Source: Paracoccus spongiarum
Lineage (GTDB): Bacteria; Pseudomonadota; Alphaproteobacteria; Rhodobacterales; Rhodobacteraceae
DNA length: 64,000 nt
Assembly: GCF_030732095.1 (NCBI RefSeq)
Contig: NZ_JAVAMQ010000009.1
Coordinates: 1 to 64,000, forward strand
Direction of reading: 5' to 3'
Shown here: positions 44,380 through 59,598 of the stretch, piece by piece
Layout of the letters: each line of letters begins with the position of its first letter
Numbering within the stretch: position 1 is the stretch's first letter
Position numbers and translations under genes: made by a program
Notes under the pieces: model-generated
What the model saw: only the letters and a program-made list of their open reading frames with translations
The model's database searches: none
What the model was told of the DNA's origin: nothing

Positions 44380-44462
44380 CGCGGGCCTCCTGCGGTCCAA
44401 AACAGTGACGCCCCCGTGGGCGCAACGCGCTGACGGGGGGCGATCCCCGCAGATGACGGGGA

Positions 44463-55074: not shown

Positions 55075-56445
55075 TTACCTGTAGGTGACTTTTTTGACCG
55101 CCTCGACCACCTCGGCCGGGGTGATGAGGGCGTGCTTTTCAAGATTGGCGGCATAGGGCATGGGCACGTCCTTGCCGGTGCAGTTGATCACCGGGGCGTC
55201 CAGATGATCGAAGGCGTTTTCCATGATGTAGGCCGAGATGTGGTTGCCGATCGAGGCGACGGGGAAGCCCTCCTCGACGGTCACGCAGCGATTGGTCTTC
55301 CTGACCGACTCGATGATCGTGCCGTAGTCCAGCGGGCGCAGGGTGCGCAGGTCGATCACCTCGGCCTCGATGCCGTCCTGGGCCAGCTTGTCGGCGGCCT
55401 CCAGCGCATGGGCCATGCCGATGCCGAAGCTGACGATGGTCACGTCGCTGCCCGACCGCGCGATGCGGGCCTTGCCGAAGGGGATGGTGAAGTCGTCCAT
55501 GTCCGGCACCTCGAAGCTGCGGCCATAGAGGATCTCGTTTTCGAGGAAGATCACCGGGTTCGGATCGCGGATCGCCTGCTTCAGCAGGCCCTTGGCGTCG
55601 GCTGCGCTGTAGGGGATCACCACCTTGAGACCGGGGATCTGCGCATACCAGGCCGAATAGTCCTGGCTGTGCTGGGCCGCGACGCGCGCGGCCGCGCCGT
55701 TCGGGCCGCGGAACACGATGGGGCAGCCCATCTGCCCGCCCGACATGTAAAGCGTCTTGGCGGCCGAGTTGATGATGTGGTCGATGGCCTGCATGGCAAA
55801 GTTGAAGGTCATGAACTCGACGATCGGGCGCAGGCCGGCCAGCGCGGCGCCGGTGCCGATGCCCGCAAAGCCGATCTCGCTGATCGGGGTGTCCACCACG
55901 CGGCGCGGGCCGAACTTGTCCAGAAGCCCTTGGCTGATCTTGTAGGCGCCCTGGTATTCGCCGACTTCCTCACCCATCAGGAACACGGTCTCGTCGCGCT
56001 CCATCTCTTCGGACATGGCCTCGCGAAGGGCTTCGCGCACGGTCATGGTCTTCATCTTCGTGCCTTCGGGCCAGTCGGGGCTGCGGTCGGGCTCGGGGGT
56101 TCTGACCTCTTCGACGGCGGATGCGGCAGGGCTTTCGGCCTTCGCCTCGGCGGGCGCGGCGGCGGGTTTGGCGGCGGGCGCCTTGATGTCGTCCGCGCTT
56201 TCGCCTTCCTCGACCATCACGGCGATGGGCGTGTTGACGGCCACGCCCTGGGTGCCCTCGGCAATGAGGATCTTGCCGAGGATGCCCTCATCCACGGCCT
56301 CGAATTCCATCGTCGCCTTGTCGGTCTCGATCTCGGCGATGATGTCGCCGGACTTGACCGCGTCGCCTTCCTTCTTCAGCCATTTCGCCAGCGTGCCCTC
56401 TTCCATCGTCGGCGACAGGGCGGGCATCAGGATTTCGGTTGCCAT
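55075..56445 (-). CDS. pdhB: pyruvate dehydrogenase E1 beta with N-terminal lipoyl domain
   Basis: Transketolase-like beta subunit (456 aa). Residues 1-80 are a lipoyl domain with lysine K43; an Ala/Pro/Glu linker leads to the E1-beta proper (about 130-456: [32 protein letters not shown]). The extra lipoyl domain is known in several alphaproteobacteria and gives the complex a second kind of swinging arm. 12 bp separate it from pdhC. Confidence 0.95.
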
Positions 56446-56461
56446 TCTCGTTCACCCTCCC

Positions 56462-57496
56462 TCAGGCGTGTTCTTCGGCGCTGCCCTGCGGCAGGTCGTC
56501 GGCGTAGATGTCGGTCCACAGTTCGTCCAGCGCGGGTTCGGGGCTTTCCTTGGCGAATTCGGCCGACTCGTTGACGATCTCCTTGATCTCCTTGTCGATC
56601 GCCTTGAGGTCGTCCTCGCTGGCATGCTTGCCCTGCAGGATCAGGTCGCGGACATGTTCGATGGCGTCGCGTTCATCGCGCATCTTCTGCACCTCCTCGC
56701 GGGTCCGGTACTTCGCCGGGTCCGACATCGAGTGGCCGCGATAGCGATACGTCATCACCTCGAGGATATAGGGTCCCTTGCCGGCGCGGCAGTGCGCCAC
56801 CGCCTTCTCGCCCGCGGCCTTCACCGCCAGCACGTCCATGCCGTCGACCTGCTCGCCGGGGATACCGAACGCCTCGCCGCGCCCGAACAGCGTCGTGGAC
56901 TTGGTGGACCGCTTCATCGAGGTGCCCATGGCATACTGGTTGTTCTCGATCACGAAGATCACCGGCAGGTCCCACAACTCGGCCATGTTGTAGGTCTCGT
57001 AGACCTGGCCCTGGTTCGAGGCGCCGTCGCCGAAATAGGTGAAGGTGACGTTGTCATTGCCCAGATACTTGTCGGCGAAGGCCAGCCCCGCGCCCAGCGG
57101 CACCTGCGCCGCGACGATCCCGTGGCCGCCATAGAAGTGCTTTTCGCGGCTGAACATGTGCATGCTGCCGCCCTTGCCCTTGGAATAGCCGCCCTCGCGC
57201 CCGGTCAGCTCGGCCATCACGCCGTTGGGGTCCATGCCGCAGGCCAGCATGTGGCCGTGATCGCGATACGAGGTGATGCGCTTGTCGCCCTCTTTCGCGG
57301 CCGCCTCGAGGCCCACGACCACCGCTTCCTGGCCGATGTAGAGATGGCAGAAGCCGCCGATCAGACCCATGCCGTAAAGCTGCCCGGCCTTCTCCTCGAA
57401 TCGCCGGATCAGCAGCATGTCGCGGTAATATTTGAGCAGCTCGTCCTTGGACGTGTTGGACGGCGCGGCGGTGCCGCCTGCGGGTCTTCTGGCCAT
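56462..57496 (-). CDS. pdhA: pyruvate dehydrogenase E1 alpha
   Basis: TPP-dependent decarboxylase subunit (344 aa). The thiamine diphosphate motif runs from GDG (156-158) to NN (185-186); the phosphorylation-loop region YRYRGHSMSDP follows. ATG 57496 with AGGAGG (57506-57511 on the minus strand) 9 nt upstream. First gene of pdhABC. A promoter overlapped by an inverted repeat lies just upstream, and the SD is complementary to the CCTCCT core of the sRNA array at 58819-59266. Confidence 0.95.
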   Translation of the reverse strand: MARRPAGGTAAPSNTSKDELLKYYRDMLLIRRFEEKAGQLYGMGLIGGFCHLYIGQEAVVVGLEAAAKEGDKRITSYRDHGHMLACGMDPNGVMAELTGREGGYSKGKGGSMHMFSREKHFYGGHGIVAAQVPLGAGLAFADKYLGNDNVTFTYFGDGASNQGQVYETYNMAELWDLPVIFVIENNQYAMGTSMKRSTKSTTLFGRGEAFGIPGEQVDGMDVLAVKAAGEKAVAHCRAGKGPYILEVMTYRYRGHSMSDPAKYRTREEVQKMRDERDAIEHVRDLILQGKHASEDDLKAIDKEIKEIVNESAEFAKESPEPALDELWTDIYADDLPQGSAEEHA

Positions 57497-57523
57497 GCGG
57501 GCATTCCTCCTGGCAGCTGGTTC

Positions 57524-57574
57524 GGGATAGTTCAGCGTTAAACTATCCCTAGCGCATCGCTTCGGGGGGTGCAA
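57524..57574 (-). promoter_or_regulatory. pdhA promoter overlapped by an operator-like palindrome
   Basis: Minus strand: TTGCAC (57569-57574), 17 bp, TAGGGA (57546-57551) as a candidate promoter. The perfect repeat GGGATAGTT-N8-AACTATCCC (57524-57532, 57541-57549) overlaps the -10 and start region, where a bound repressor would block transcription; as RNA it could also form a hairpin in the leader. Confidence 0.55.
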
Positions 57575-58818: not shown

Positions 58819-58885
58819 GCGGCGGCACCCAGGGAGGAGGAGGGGGTGCCGCCGCTCAACGCTGGCCCGGGGAGGAGGGAGGGCC
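58819..58885 (-). ncRNA. CcsR/cuckoo-type sRNA unit 5
   Basis: Last unit of the array. First hairpin: GGCCC/GGGCC (58864-58868, 58881-58885). Second: a perfect 12-bp stem (58819-58830, 58844-58855). Both loops read CCTCCTCCC on the minus strand. Below 58819 another CCTCCTC occurs without a stem, and no T-run follows, so the 3-prime end probably arises by processing. Confidence 0.72.
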
Positions 58886-58896
58886 GCGTATGGGGT

Positions 58897-58968
58897 GCGG
58901 TGCAGGCCAGGGAGGAGGGGCCGACACCGCCTGCGAGCGCGCCCCGGGAGGGAGGAGGAGGGGGCCCG
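58897..58968 (-). ncRNA. CcsR/cuckoo-type sRNA unit 4
   Basis: First hairpin: GCCCC/GGGGC core (58941-58945, 58961-58965), loop with CCTCCTCCCTCCC. Second: outer 6-bp GCGGTG/CACCGC (58897-58902, 58925-58930), a 2x2 mismatch, inner GGCC/GGCC, loop CCTCCTCCCT. The 11-nt linker to unit 5 reads ACCCCATACGC on the minus strand. Confidence 0.7.
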
Positions 58969-59005
58969 TCGCATCGATGTGCCGCAAATGAGGCGGCTAT
59001 GGGGT

Positions 59006-59076
59006 GCGGCAACGCCCAGGGAGGAGGAGGGGCCTTGCCGCCTGCGCCCGGCCAGGGAGGAGGGAGGGCGGGCGCA
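59006..59076 (-). ncRNA. CcsR/cuckoo-type sRNA unit 3
   Basis: First hairpin: 8-bp TGCGCCCG/CGGGCGCA (59043-59050, 59069-59076) plus two inner pairs, loop TCCCTCCTCCCT. Second: GCGGCAA/TTGCCGC (59006-59012, 59035-59041), one mismatch, then four inner pairs, loop CTCCTCCTCCCT. The linker to unit 4 begins ACCCCATAG, like the unit 4-5 linker. Confidence 0.72.
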
Positions 59077-59111
59077 ATCGGGTGCCGCATGCGGGGCGGC
59101 TATGTCTTTTC

Positions 59112-59181
59112 GCGGCGGCCCCGGGGAGGAGGGAGGCGGGGCCGCCGCAGTCACGAGAAACCCTGGGGAGGAGGTCGGGTT
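59112..59181 (-). ncRNA. CcsR/cuckoo-type sRNA unit 2
   Basis: First hairpin: AACCC/GGGTT (59159-59163, 59177-59181), loop with CCTCCTCCC. Second: an 11-bp perfect stem GCGGCGGCCCC/GGGGCCGCCGC (59112-59122, 59138-59148), loop with CCCTCCTCCCC. The 35-nt linker to unit 3 shares CATAGCCGCC and GCGGCAC with the unit 3-4 linker. Confidence 0.72.
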
Positions 59182-59196
59182 CCGTCGCGGTCTTTG

Positions 59197-59266
59197 GGCG
59201 GCATCCTCCAAGGGAGGAGGAGGGGAGGATGCCGCCGGTCCCGGCCCCGGGAGGAGGTGGGGCGGG
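59197..59266 (-). ncRNA. CcsR/cuckoo-type sRNA unit 1
   Basis: Directly after the DUF1127 stop. First hairpin (59240-59266): CCCC/GGGG core with a bulged outer stem, loop ACCTCCTCCC. Second: a 13-bp perfect stem (59197-59209, 59224-59236), loop with CCTCCTCCCTT. Its stem itself contains CCTCC. Linker to unit 2 is 15 nt. Confidence 0.74.
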
Positions 59267-59278
59267 AATTCGGTTCGC

Positions 59279-59506
59279 TTACTTCGTGACGCCCCAGGCC
59301 GCCTCGTGGGCGATGCGGGTGATCATCGAGCGGTTGATGCCCAGATCGTCCAGATCGCGGGTCGTCAACGCGTTCAGTTCGCGGACGGTCTGGCGATACA
59401 CGGCGTTGCGGGCGCGGTTTTCCTGATGGCGCTGAACCGCGGCCAGCAGGCGAGCGCGCAGGCCGGCATTGGCCGGGGCGACATGTGCTTGGGCGATAAC
59501 GGTCAT
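59279..59506 (-). CDS. DUF1127 small protein heading the sRNA array (CcaF1-like)
   Basis: A 75-residue basic protein ending with the DUF1127 helix motif RELNALTTRDLDDLGINRSM. In Rhodobacter sphaeroides the equivalent gene (ccaF1) precedes and is co-transcribed with the CcsR sRNAs, and its product is an RNA-binding protein acting in sRNA processing and turnover. AAGGA lies before ATG 59506. The stop is 12 nt before unit 1, so one transcript from its promoter would carry all five units. Confidence 0.9.
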   Translation of the reverse strand: MTVIAQAHVAPANAGLRARLLAAVQRHQENRARNAVYRQTVRELNALTTRDLDDLGINRSMITRIAHEAAWGVTK

Positions 59507-59570: not shown

Positions 59571-59598
59571 AGATGGCGCTAATGCTGCAGTTGCACAA
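59571..59598 (-). promoter_or_regulatory. heat-shock-sigma-like promoter of DUF1127/sRNA array
   Basis: Minus strand: TTGTGC (59593-59598), 16 bp, CCATCT (59571-59576) preceded by CG. The -10 fits the RpoH CCATNT pattern and the -35 keeps TTG. In R. sphaeroides the CcsR operon is driven by RpoHI/RpoHII, so this is where such a promoter is expected, about 65 nt before the start codon. Confidence 0.45.

Follow-up and report, generated by a model that had tools for sequence, protein, structure and literature searches.

A small DUF1127 gene in Paracoccus spongiarum is followed by an array of ten hairpins, and by its sequence this locus is a member of the broad cuckoo RNA/CIN1 kind, which is already known and whose studied case is ccaF1-CcsR1-4. 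The array is a real, well-conserved and ordinary-sized member of that kind, with a notable block order and notable spacer hairpins. The reading that we prefer, and that we consider probable, is that of a CcsR/cuckoo-type locus in which one RpoH-type promoter would serve the DUF1127 gene and the ten hairpins in the order 4+2+4, RNase E would cut the transcript, and the products would act by pairing with Shine-Dalgarno sequences. The DNA itself displays the hairpins, conserved and covarying, the block order, likewise conserved, the promoter element and the DUF1127 gene.

Results

Ten motif hairpins follow the DUF1127 gene

Within the 64-kb stretch of DNA that we analysed (the window), ten exact copies of CCTCCTCCC lie at 58832-59257, all on the minus strand; the motif is found neither on the plus strand nor outside the array anywhere in the window. 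The Paracoccus spongiarum genome holds 26 copies in total, 16 of them dispersed outside the array, which is the sole cluster; since the reversed motif, used as a control, occurs 34 times in the same genome, isolated copies are uninformative. Each of the ten copies lies in a hairpin loop, nine of them in the MFE structure of the whole region and that of H1 by local folding. When the hairpins were folded as pairs against 200 dinucleotide shuffles each, pairs 1-5 gave z scores of -5.7, -6.2, -4.0, -2.6 and -5.3, with 0, 0, 1, 6 and 0 shuffles folding as well as the real pair, the advantage of pair 4 being modest; the matching pieces of the plus strand gave -4.8, -1.1, -2.6, -1.1 and -4.3. With the motif in the loop in ten of ten cases and folding that beats the shuffles, the ten minus-strand hairpins that a preliminary description had placed after the DUF1127 stop codon are borne out. 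Some of its details need correction: cores described as slightly shorter in part are all the full CCTCCTCCC, and the units, given as 70, 70, 71, 72 and 67 nt, measure 71, 79, 72, 77 and 74 nt.

All ten hairpins are on the minus strand and fall into three blocks. The first comprises H1 (59239-59267, placed by folding and by its CCTCCTCCC at 59257-59249), H2 (59197-59236), H3 (59152-59189) and H4 (59111-59149); the second, H5 (59042-59077) and H6 (59006-59041); the third, H7 (58932-58973), H8 (58897-58930), H9 (58857-58892), which opens a conserved terminal unit, and the terminal hairpin H10 (58819-58855). H2 to H10 were assigned from motif and folding, and H9 and H10 also from the alignment of relatives.

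One promoter element, the DUF1127 gene and its neighbours

The DUF1127 gene (59279-59506, minus strand) encodes a CcaF1-like protein of 75 aa (PF06568, E 3.7e-12), relatives of which were found in 108 of 125 Paracoccus genomes; a motif pair is present in 123 of the 125. Upstream of the gene we predict an RpoH-type promoter at 59571-59598 on the minus strand, with TTGTG at 59598-59594, a 17-nt spacer and CCATCT at 59576-59571. In 101 aligned upstream regions of the genus, TTGTG and, in the second element, CAT are each 99-100% conserved. The pattern TTG[TA][GC]-N14-19-CCAT[CAT][TA] lies upstream of 73 of 112 arrays, with a spacer of 17 in 72 of them, and is absent from the other 39. The TTG of the -35 element is reported as essential for RpoHI/HII of R. 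sphaeroides (PMC3441632), and TTGTG-N17-CCATCT is likely the RpoH-type promoter of the array. An inverted repeat of the GCTGC-ATG-GCAGC type was also seen in the mrp/DUF1127 intergenic region (59627-59615, minus strand); over the 101 upstream regions its conservation is 84-99% in most columns and 64-67% in two. It resembles what we take to be a CTGC-N3-GCAG regulator site (PhaR), a putative assignment.

The gene order is mrp (divergent), DUF1127, array and rlmJ, with rlmJ following 109 of 112 main loci and all three genes present in 89. Among the loci listed as L157-L310, 120 of which are the matches listed by a single scan, DUF1127 lay within 700 nt of 49 of 51 arrays of at least six hairpins; for arrays of three to five hairpins it lay at most 700 nt upstream in at least 30 of 104, some of these loci starting near the array. 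Further downstream on the same strand, at a distance of about 1.2-3.7 kb from the array, the window also carries a dehydrogenase E1 gene (pdhA-like, PF00676) and a putative pdhB (55075-57574, minus strand).

No TTTT follows H10 in the Paracoccus spongiarum array, and the rlmJ start is 60 nt past H10; in the absence of a T run, some transcripts would read on into rlmJ. Across the genus, 77 of 112 arrays have a TTTT at most 45 nt from their last core. That frequency, together with a start of H1 only 11 nt past the DUF1127 stop codon, is what a structured 3' UTR would look like if it protected the DUF1127 mRNA or stopped transcription and released free RNAs as by-products. We regard this as very improbable, given that the loop motifs stay constant while the stems change, that a single terminator hairpin would suffice, and that processed CcsR RNAs have been described in R. 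sphaeroides (PMC10253847, PMC8625941).

The array belongs to the broad cuckoo/CIN1 family

The Rfam model of CcsR1 (RF02791) matched the array in four places, with E values of 8.1e-11, 1.3e-8, 5.9e-7 and 1e-3. The best match, at 59107-59192, covers H3 and H4 and scores 49.3 bits against a gathering score of 65.3, so the array fails the strict RF02791 test; correspondingly, a scan at gathering thresholds returned no CcsR1, ar14 or 6C entry for the array. Two ar14 matches (E 1.4e-5 and 6.5e-5) and one weak match to 6C, an unrelated C-rich family (E 7.8e-4), are likewise under their cuts. The same Rfam scan found the ffh sRNA (RF01793) elsewhere in the window (44403-44454, minus strand, 63.4 bits). 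The broad cuckoo RNA/CIN1 family is defined by at least two adjacent CCUCCUCCC-loop hairpins with variable stems, which we found in ten of ten hairpins, and by association with a short DUF1127 gene, here the PF06568 gene described above, which lies directly upstream. Because the CcsR1 score is below the gathering cut, we file the array under this broad family only. The assignment to CcsR/cuckoo RNAs made in the preliminary description thus stands at the level of the broad family, on the DUF1127 gene, the paired hairpins, the CcsR1 E values and the RpoH-like element; the covariance-model search that it had proposed did locate CcsR1 four times and did not carry the array past the strict Rfam cut.

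Similar loci have been described in other alphaproteobacteria, where CcsR-like RNAs are reported to adjoin short DUF1127 genes (Reinkensmeier and Giegerich 2015, as cited in PMC10253847). In R. sphaeroides, ccaF1 is a small DUF1127 gene with the CcsR RNAs in its 3' UTR (PMC10253847, PMC8625941), and these RNAs reportedly influence the pyruvate dehydrogenase complex (PMC8307010) and modulate C1 metabolism (PMC10253847). Our locus shares with ccaF1-CcsR1-4 the small DUF1127 gene, a predicted RpoH-like promoter element, the position of the hairpins 3' of the gene and the two stem loops with an aSD motif that are described for each CcsR RNA (PMC3927594). It differs in having five pairs, whereas R. 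sphaeroides has four RNAs, and in ending without a T run, a Rho-independent terminator being a feature of the R. sphaeroides locus and not of the family. The Paracoccus spongiarum pairs are grouped 4+2+4 by motif-free hairpins. The Sinorhizobium RNAs SmelA075/SmelA099 (ar14, NfeR1) also carry CCUCCUCCC in each loop on variable stems (PMC3927594, PMC10746234), but they have three and four aSD hairpins, unlike the Paracoccus spongiarum array. The main text of a paper on Paracoccus denitrificans sRNAs contains no CcsR, DUF1127, cuckoo or CCUCC (PMC5107571).

Ten hairpins are an ordinary number for the genus

We counted hairpins by exact CTCCTCC cores in 112 of the 125 genus genomes, a few of whose arrays are cut by contig ends (e.g. 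G057). The median is 10 per array (range 2-20): 26 genomes have ten, as Paracoccus spongiarum does, 54 have more and 32 have fewer. This comparison of unit number across Paracoccus, which the preliminary description had called for, gives no support within the genus to its proposal of an enlarged set; the array exceeds only the four R. sphaeroides RNAs. The count is even in 95 of the 112 arrays, which fits a two-hairpin unit. In an order-wide sample, 196 of 390 genomes, from 83 of 139 genera, had at least three motifs in a row.

Several arrays depart from the usual setting. Plasmids carry DUF1127-arrays in P. jeotgali (pCBA4604-01, eight hairpins, L308 6160-6506) and in Paracoccus sp. AK26 (pAK2, five hairpins, L307 6168-6387), and further short arrays without an adjoining rlmJ occur in G018, G019, G030, G076, G086 and G122. 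A phage origin was considered and rejected, there being no DUF1127 match among 50,697 phage records. The genomes G011, G024 and G025 have three-hairpin arrays with mrp and rlmJ present and no DUF1127 match (L067, L079 and L080), likely through natural loss, and a natural loss of the array is also likely in G020, a Paracoccus genome that is 99% complete and has neither a DUF1127 match nor a motif pair. In Streptomyces bohaiensis (L163), four CTCCTCC hairpins at an exact spacing of 33 nt and with no DUF1127 are probably a coding or simple repeat outside the cuckoo/CIN1 family.

Units keep their position between species

To follow single units across the genus we took the 93 genomes whose hairpin count is even and no smaller than eight, 521 pairs in all. 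The best cross-genome match of a unit was the one at the same position for 90 of 93 first units, 76 of 93 second, 76 of 93 next-to-last and 86 of 93 last units, and for 107 of 149 inner units. With matches of at least 85% identity dropped, the same-position counts were 86, 71, 76 and 64 of 93, and 88 of 149 for inner units. When only matches below 80% identity were allowed, the pattern of the last unit was lost (16 of 93) and that of the remaining units was weaker (53, 55 and 61 of 93; inner 75 of 149). By these comparisons the units hold a positional identity between species, and in most relatives the hairpin order is retained. Each unit is therefore likely to be maintained for its own stem or partner, not for mere dose.

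The opposing idea, that of the preliminary description, is that the units are interchangeable and that the array simply multiplies the anti-Shine-Dalgarno loops per transcript. It can draw on the one motif common to all loops, on the reported redundancy of the three NfeR1 loops (PMC10746234) and on the near-identical inner blocks of some genomes, such as G064, which has 20 hairpins and three identical spacers. We find it doubtful, since the best matches sit at the same position across genomes, a copy in the unit's own genome was the best match for 56 of the 521 units only, and the hairpin number in Paracoccus spongiarum is no more than the genus median.

Within the pairs, the second hairpin is the stronger in 412 of 527 (96 genomes). 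The terminal pair was aligned from 49 of the 98 distinct sequences found; in this alignment 98.7% of cells are paired, and 8 of 21 base pairs changed on both sides. None of 500 shuffles equalled the share paired, and slid versions of the structure were 30-53% paired. The covariation lies mostly in H10, with H9 nearly invariant. ORFs on the minus strand (152 and 251 aa) overlap the array and might encode a proline-rich protein whose codon repeats would give rise to the hairpins; we rejected this reading and assign it a negligible chance, because the hairpin spacings of relatives vary in steps that are not multiples of three and the stems covary.

Motif-free hairpins separate the blocks

The gaps from motif to motif come in two sizes, about 32-53 nt and about 70 nt, and we defined blocks by splitting at gaps of at least 58 nt. 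The resulting order of 4+2+4 in Paracoccus spongiarum is found overall in 13 of 112 genomes; the other commonest orders are 4+4+4 (14) and 4+4 (12), and some arrays are undivided, with ten hairpins (10) or eight (6). Of the 112 arrays, 89 contain a gap of 60-76 nt. The other 23 have none of this length, ten of them being ten-hairpin arrays without any long gap, so the punctuation is not universal.

Each of the two long gaps of Paracoccus spongiarum contains a hairpin of the form GCCGC-N7-GCGGC on the minus strand, P1 at 59100-59084 with no CUCC motif and P2 at 58997-58981, likewise motif-free, both placed by folding and by the helix count in the genus. The inventory in the preliminary description had overlooked these two. 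Ahead of each lies a CAUA (59101-59104 for P1 and 58998-59001 for P2, minus strand) that we predict to be an RNase E site from its A+T enrichment and from the CATA of genus gaps, where this sequence occurs in 91 of 148 segments.

RNAalifold applied to a mixed alignment of the punctuation hairpins gave almost no consensus (-1.5 kcal/mol), an uninformative result because the stem registers differ, and the punctuation was tested instead by counting helices against shuffles. A helix of at least 5 bp is present in 136 of 148 distinct genus gaps, whereas 100 shuffles gave 15.5 on average and at most 26; of the 130 gaps without any CTCC, 120 have one. CTCC occurs in the remaining 18 segments, four times in the loop, so a few of them may derive from motif hairpins that have decayed. 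In 94 of 148 gaps the stem reads GCCGC/GCGGC; others are CCGCC/GGCGG, GCCGG/CCGGC, CCCGC/GCGGG and the like. Outside the genus, 30 of 39 gaps (25 loci) have such a helix, against a mean of 7.9 and a maximum of 13 in shuffles, and the stems there are unrelated (GGGCC/GGCCC, GGACC/GGTCC, CCCCG/CGGGG). The A+T fraction in the genus is 0.74 in the 5 nt before the helix and 0.45 after it, compared with 0.30 over whole arrays, and about 7,000 of 23,000 RNase E sites in R. sphaeroides are reported to show AU enrichment (PMC6238624).

From sequence comparison, then, the motif-free hairpins are likely punctuation between blocks, and we infer that they would guide cleavage. A broader rule for the Rhodobacterales can be put forward tentatively, as a possibility that we would not yet favour: an AU-led motif-free hairpin, conserved in structure though not in sequence, would separate the blocks of anti-Shine-Dalgarno hairpins and direct RNase E, a single stress transcript then yielding ordered and individually conserved RNAs of two and four hairpins with separate jobs. 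Spacer hairpins of this kind are unnamed in the literature that we searched, the original publications on CcsR1-4, CcaF1 and the cuckoo family being outside its scope, and we make no claim to a first report.

Genes behind GGAGGAG Shine-Dalgarno sequences are candidate targets

The pattern GGAGGAG-N4-9-ATG occurs at 65 sites in the Paracoccus spongiarum genome, and its reversed control at 5. The opposite strand of the array accounts for two of the 65, and merging of overlaps left 60 separate sites, 46 of which led into an ORF of 60 aa or more and 14 into none. Solute-uptake ORFs, a class drawn up after the Pfam names were known, make up 12 of the 46 behind GGAGGAG and 1 of the 28 behind AAAGGAG (Fisher p 0.014), a small control set taken from the first 30 of 51 sites and from whose uptake class four heavy-metal or P-type ATPase proteins were excluded. 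The twelve comprise four DctP, one each of NMT1-like, permease and TctA, and five further solute-binding ORFs, of the families Peripla_BP_4, SBP_bac_5, TctC, Peripla_BP_6 and SBP_bac_1. DctP alone accounts for 17 genes in the genome, and finding four of them in the GGAGGAG set has a hypergeometric p of 1.3e-4 when the genome is assumed to hold 3,800 genes, with 62 sites. The enrichment of uptake genes is a correlation, and strong Shine-Dalgarno sequences may have other reasons. A GGAGGAG Shine-Dalgarno was also seen ahead of a GFA-family gene (PF04828, glutathione-dependent formaldehyde-activating enzyme; L358, G000:C45:228885-230240). In Sinorhizobium, NfeR1 is reported to have three hairpins whose loops silence mRNAs, and its predicted targets, two of which were tested, are mostly ABC transporters (PMC10746234).

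The loops could in principle act with no chosen targets, either titrating a protein (Hfq, the DUF1127 protein or S1) or braking initiation generally. Each loop contains CCUCC, the core of the 16S rRNA anti-Shine-Dalgarno; the 16S 3'-end pattern itself was not found in the draft assembly of Paracoccus spongiarum. CcsR1-4 are moreover reported as Hfq-dependent or Hfq-bound (PMC7866481, PMC8307010). Defined targets are nevertheless on record, flhR mRNA for CcsR1-4 (PMC8307010) and others for NfeR1 (PMC10746234), and we judge such a general sponge distinctly unlikely.

Discussion

In the CcsR/cuckoo-type locus that we propose, a single RpoH-type promoter likely drives one transcript of the DUF1127 gene and the array, and by analogy with R. 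sphaeroides this transcript would be induced by stress. RNase E likely cuts it at the predicted AU-rich sites preceding the motif-free hairpins; the R. sphaeroides case further suggests that maturation would involve RNase E with assistance from the DUF1127 protein. The predicted mature products are RNAs of two and four hairpins, whose CCUCCUCCC loops would pair with Shine-Dalgarno sequences and mask them. Their main targets are predicted to be mRNAs with a GGAGGAG Shine-Dalgarno, many of them for solute-binding proteins and transporters, and the outcome under stress would be a drop in nutrient uptake.

These results shift the question from the copy number of the hairpins to the reason for their fixed order. 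If the block order and the punctuation prove to be genuine signals, it would become possible to predict the mature RNAs in many genomes of the Rhodobacterales and to test what makes selection retain near-identical loops on distinct stems. The link to uptake genes suggests that anti-Shine-Dalgarno RNAs may restrain nutrient uptake in Paracoccus under stress, comparable to what is predicted for NfeR1/AbcR in rhizobia.
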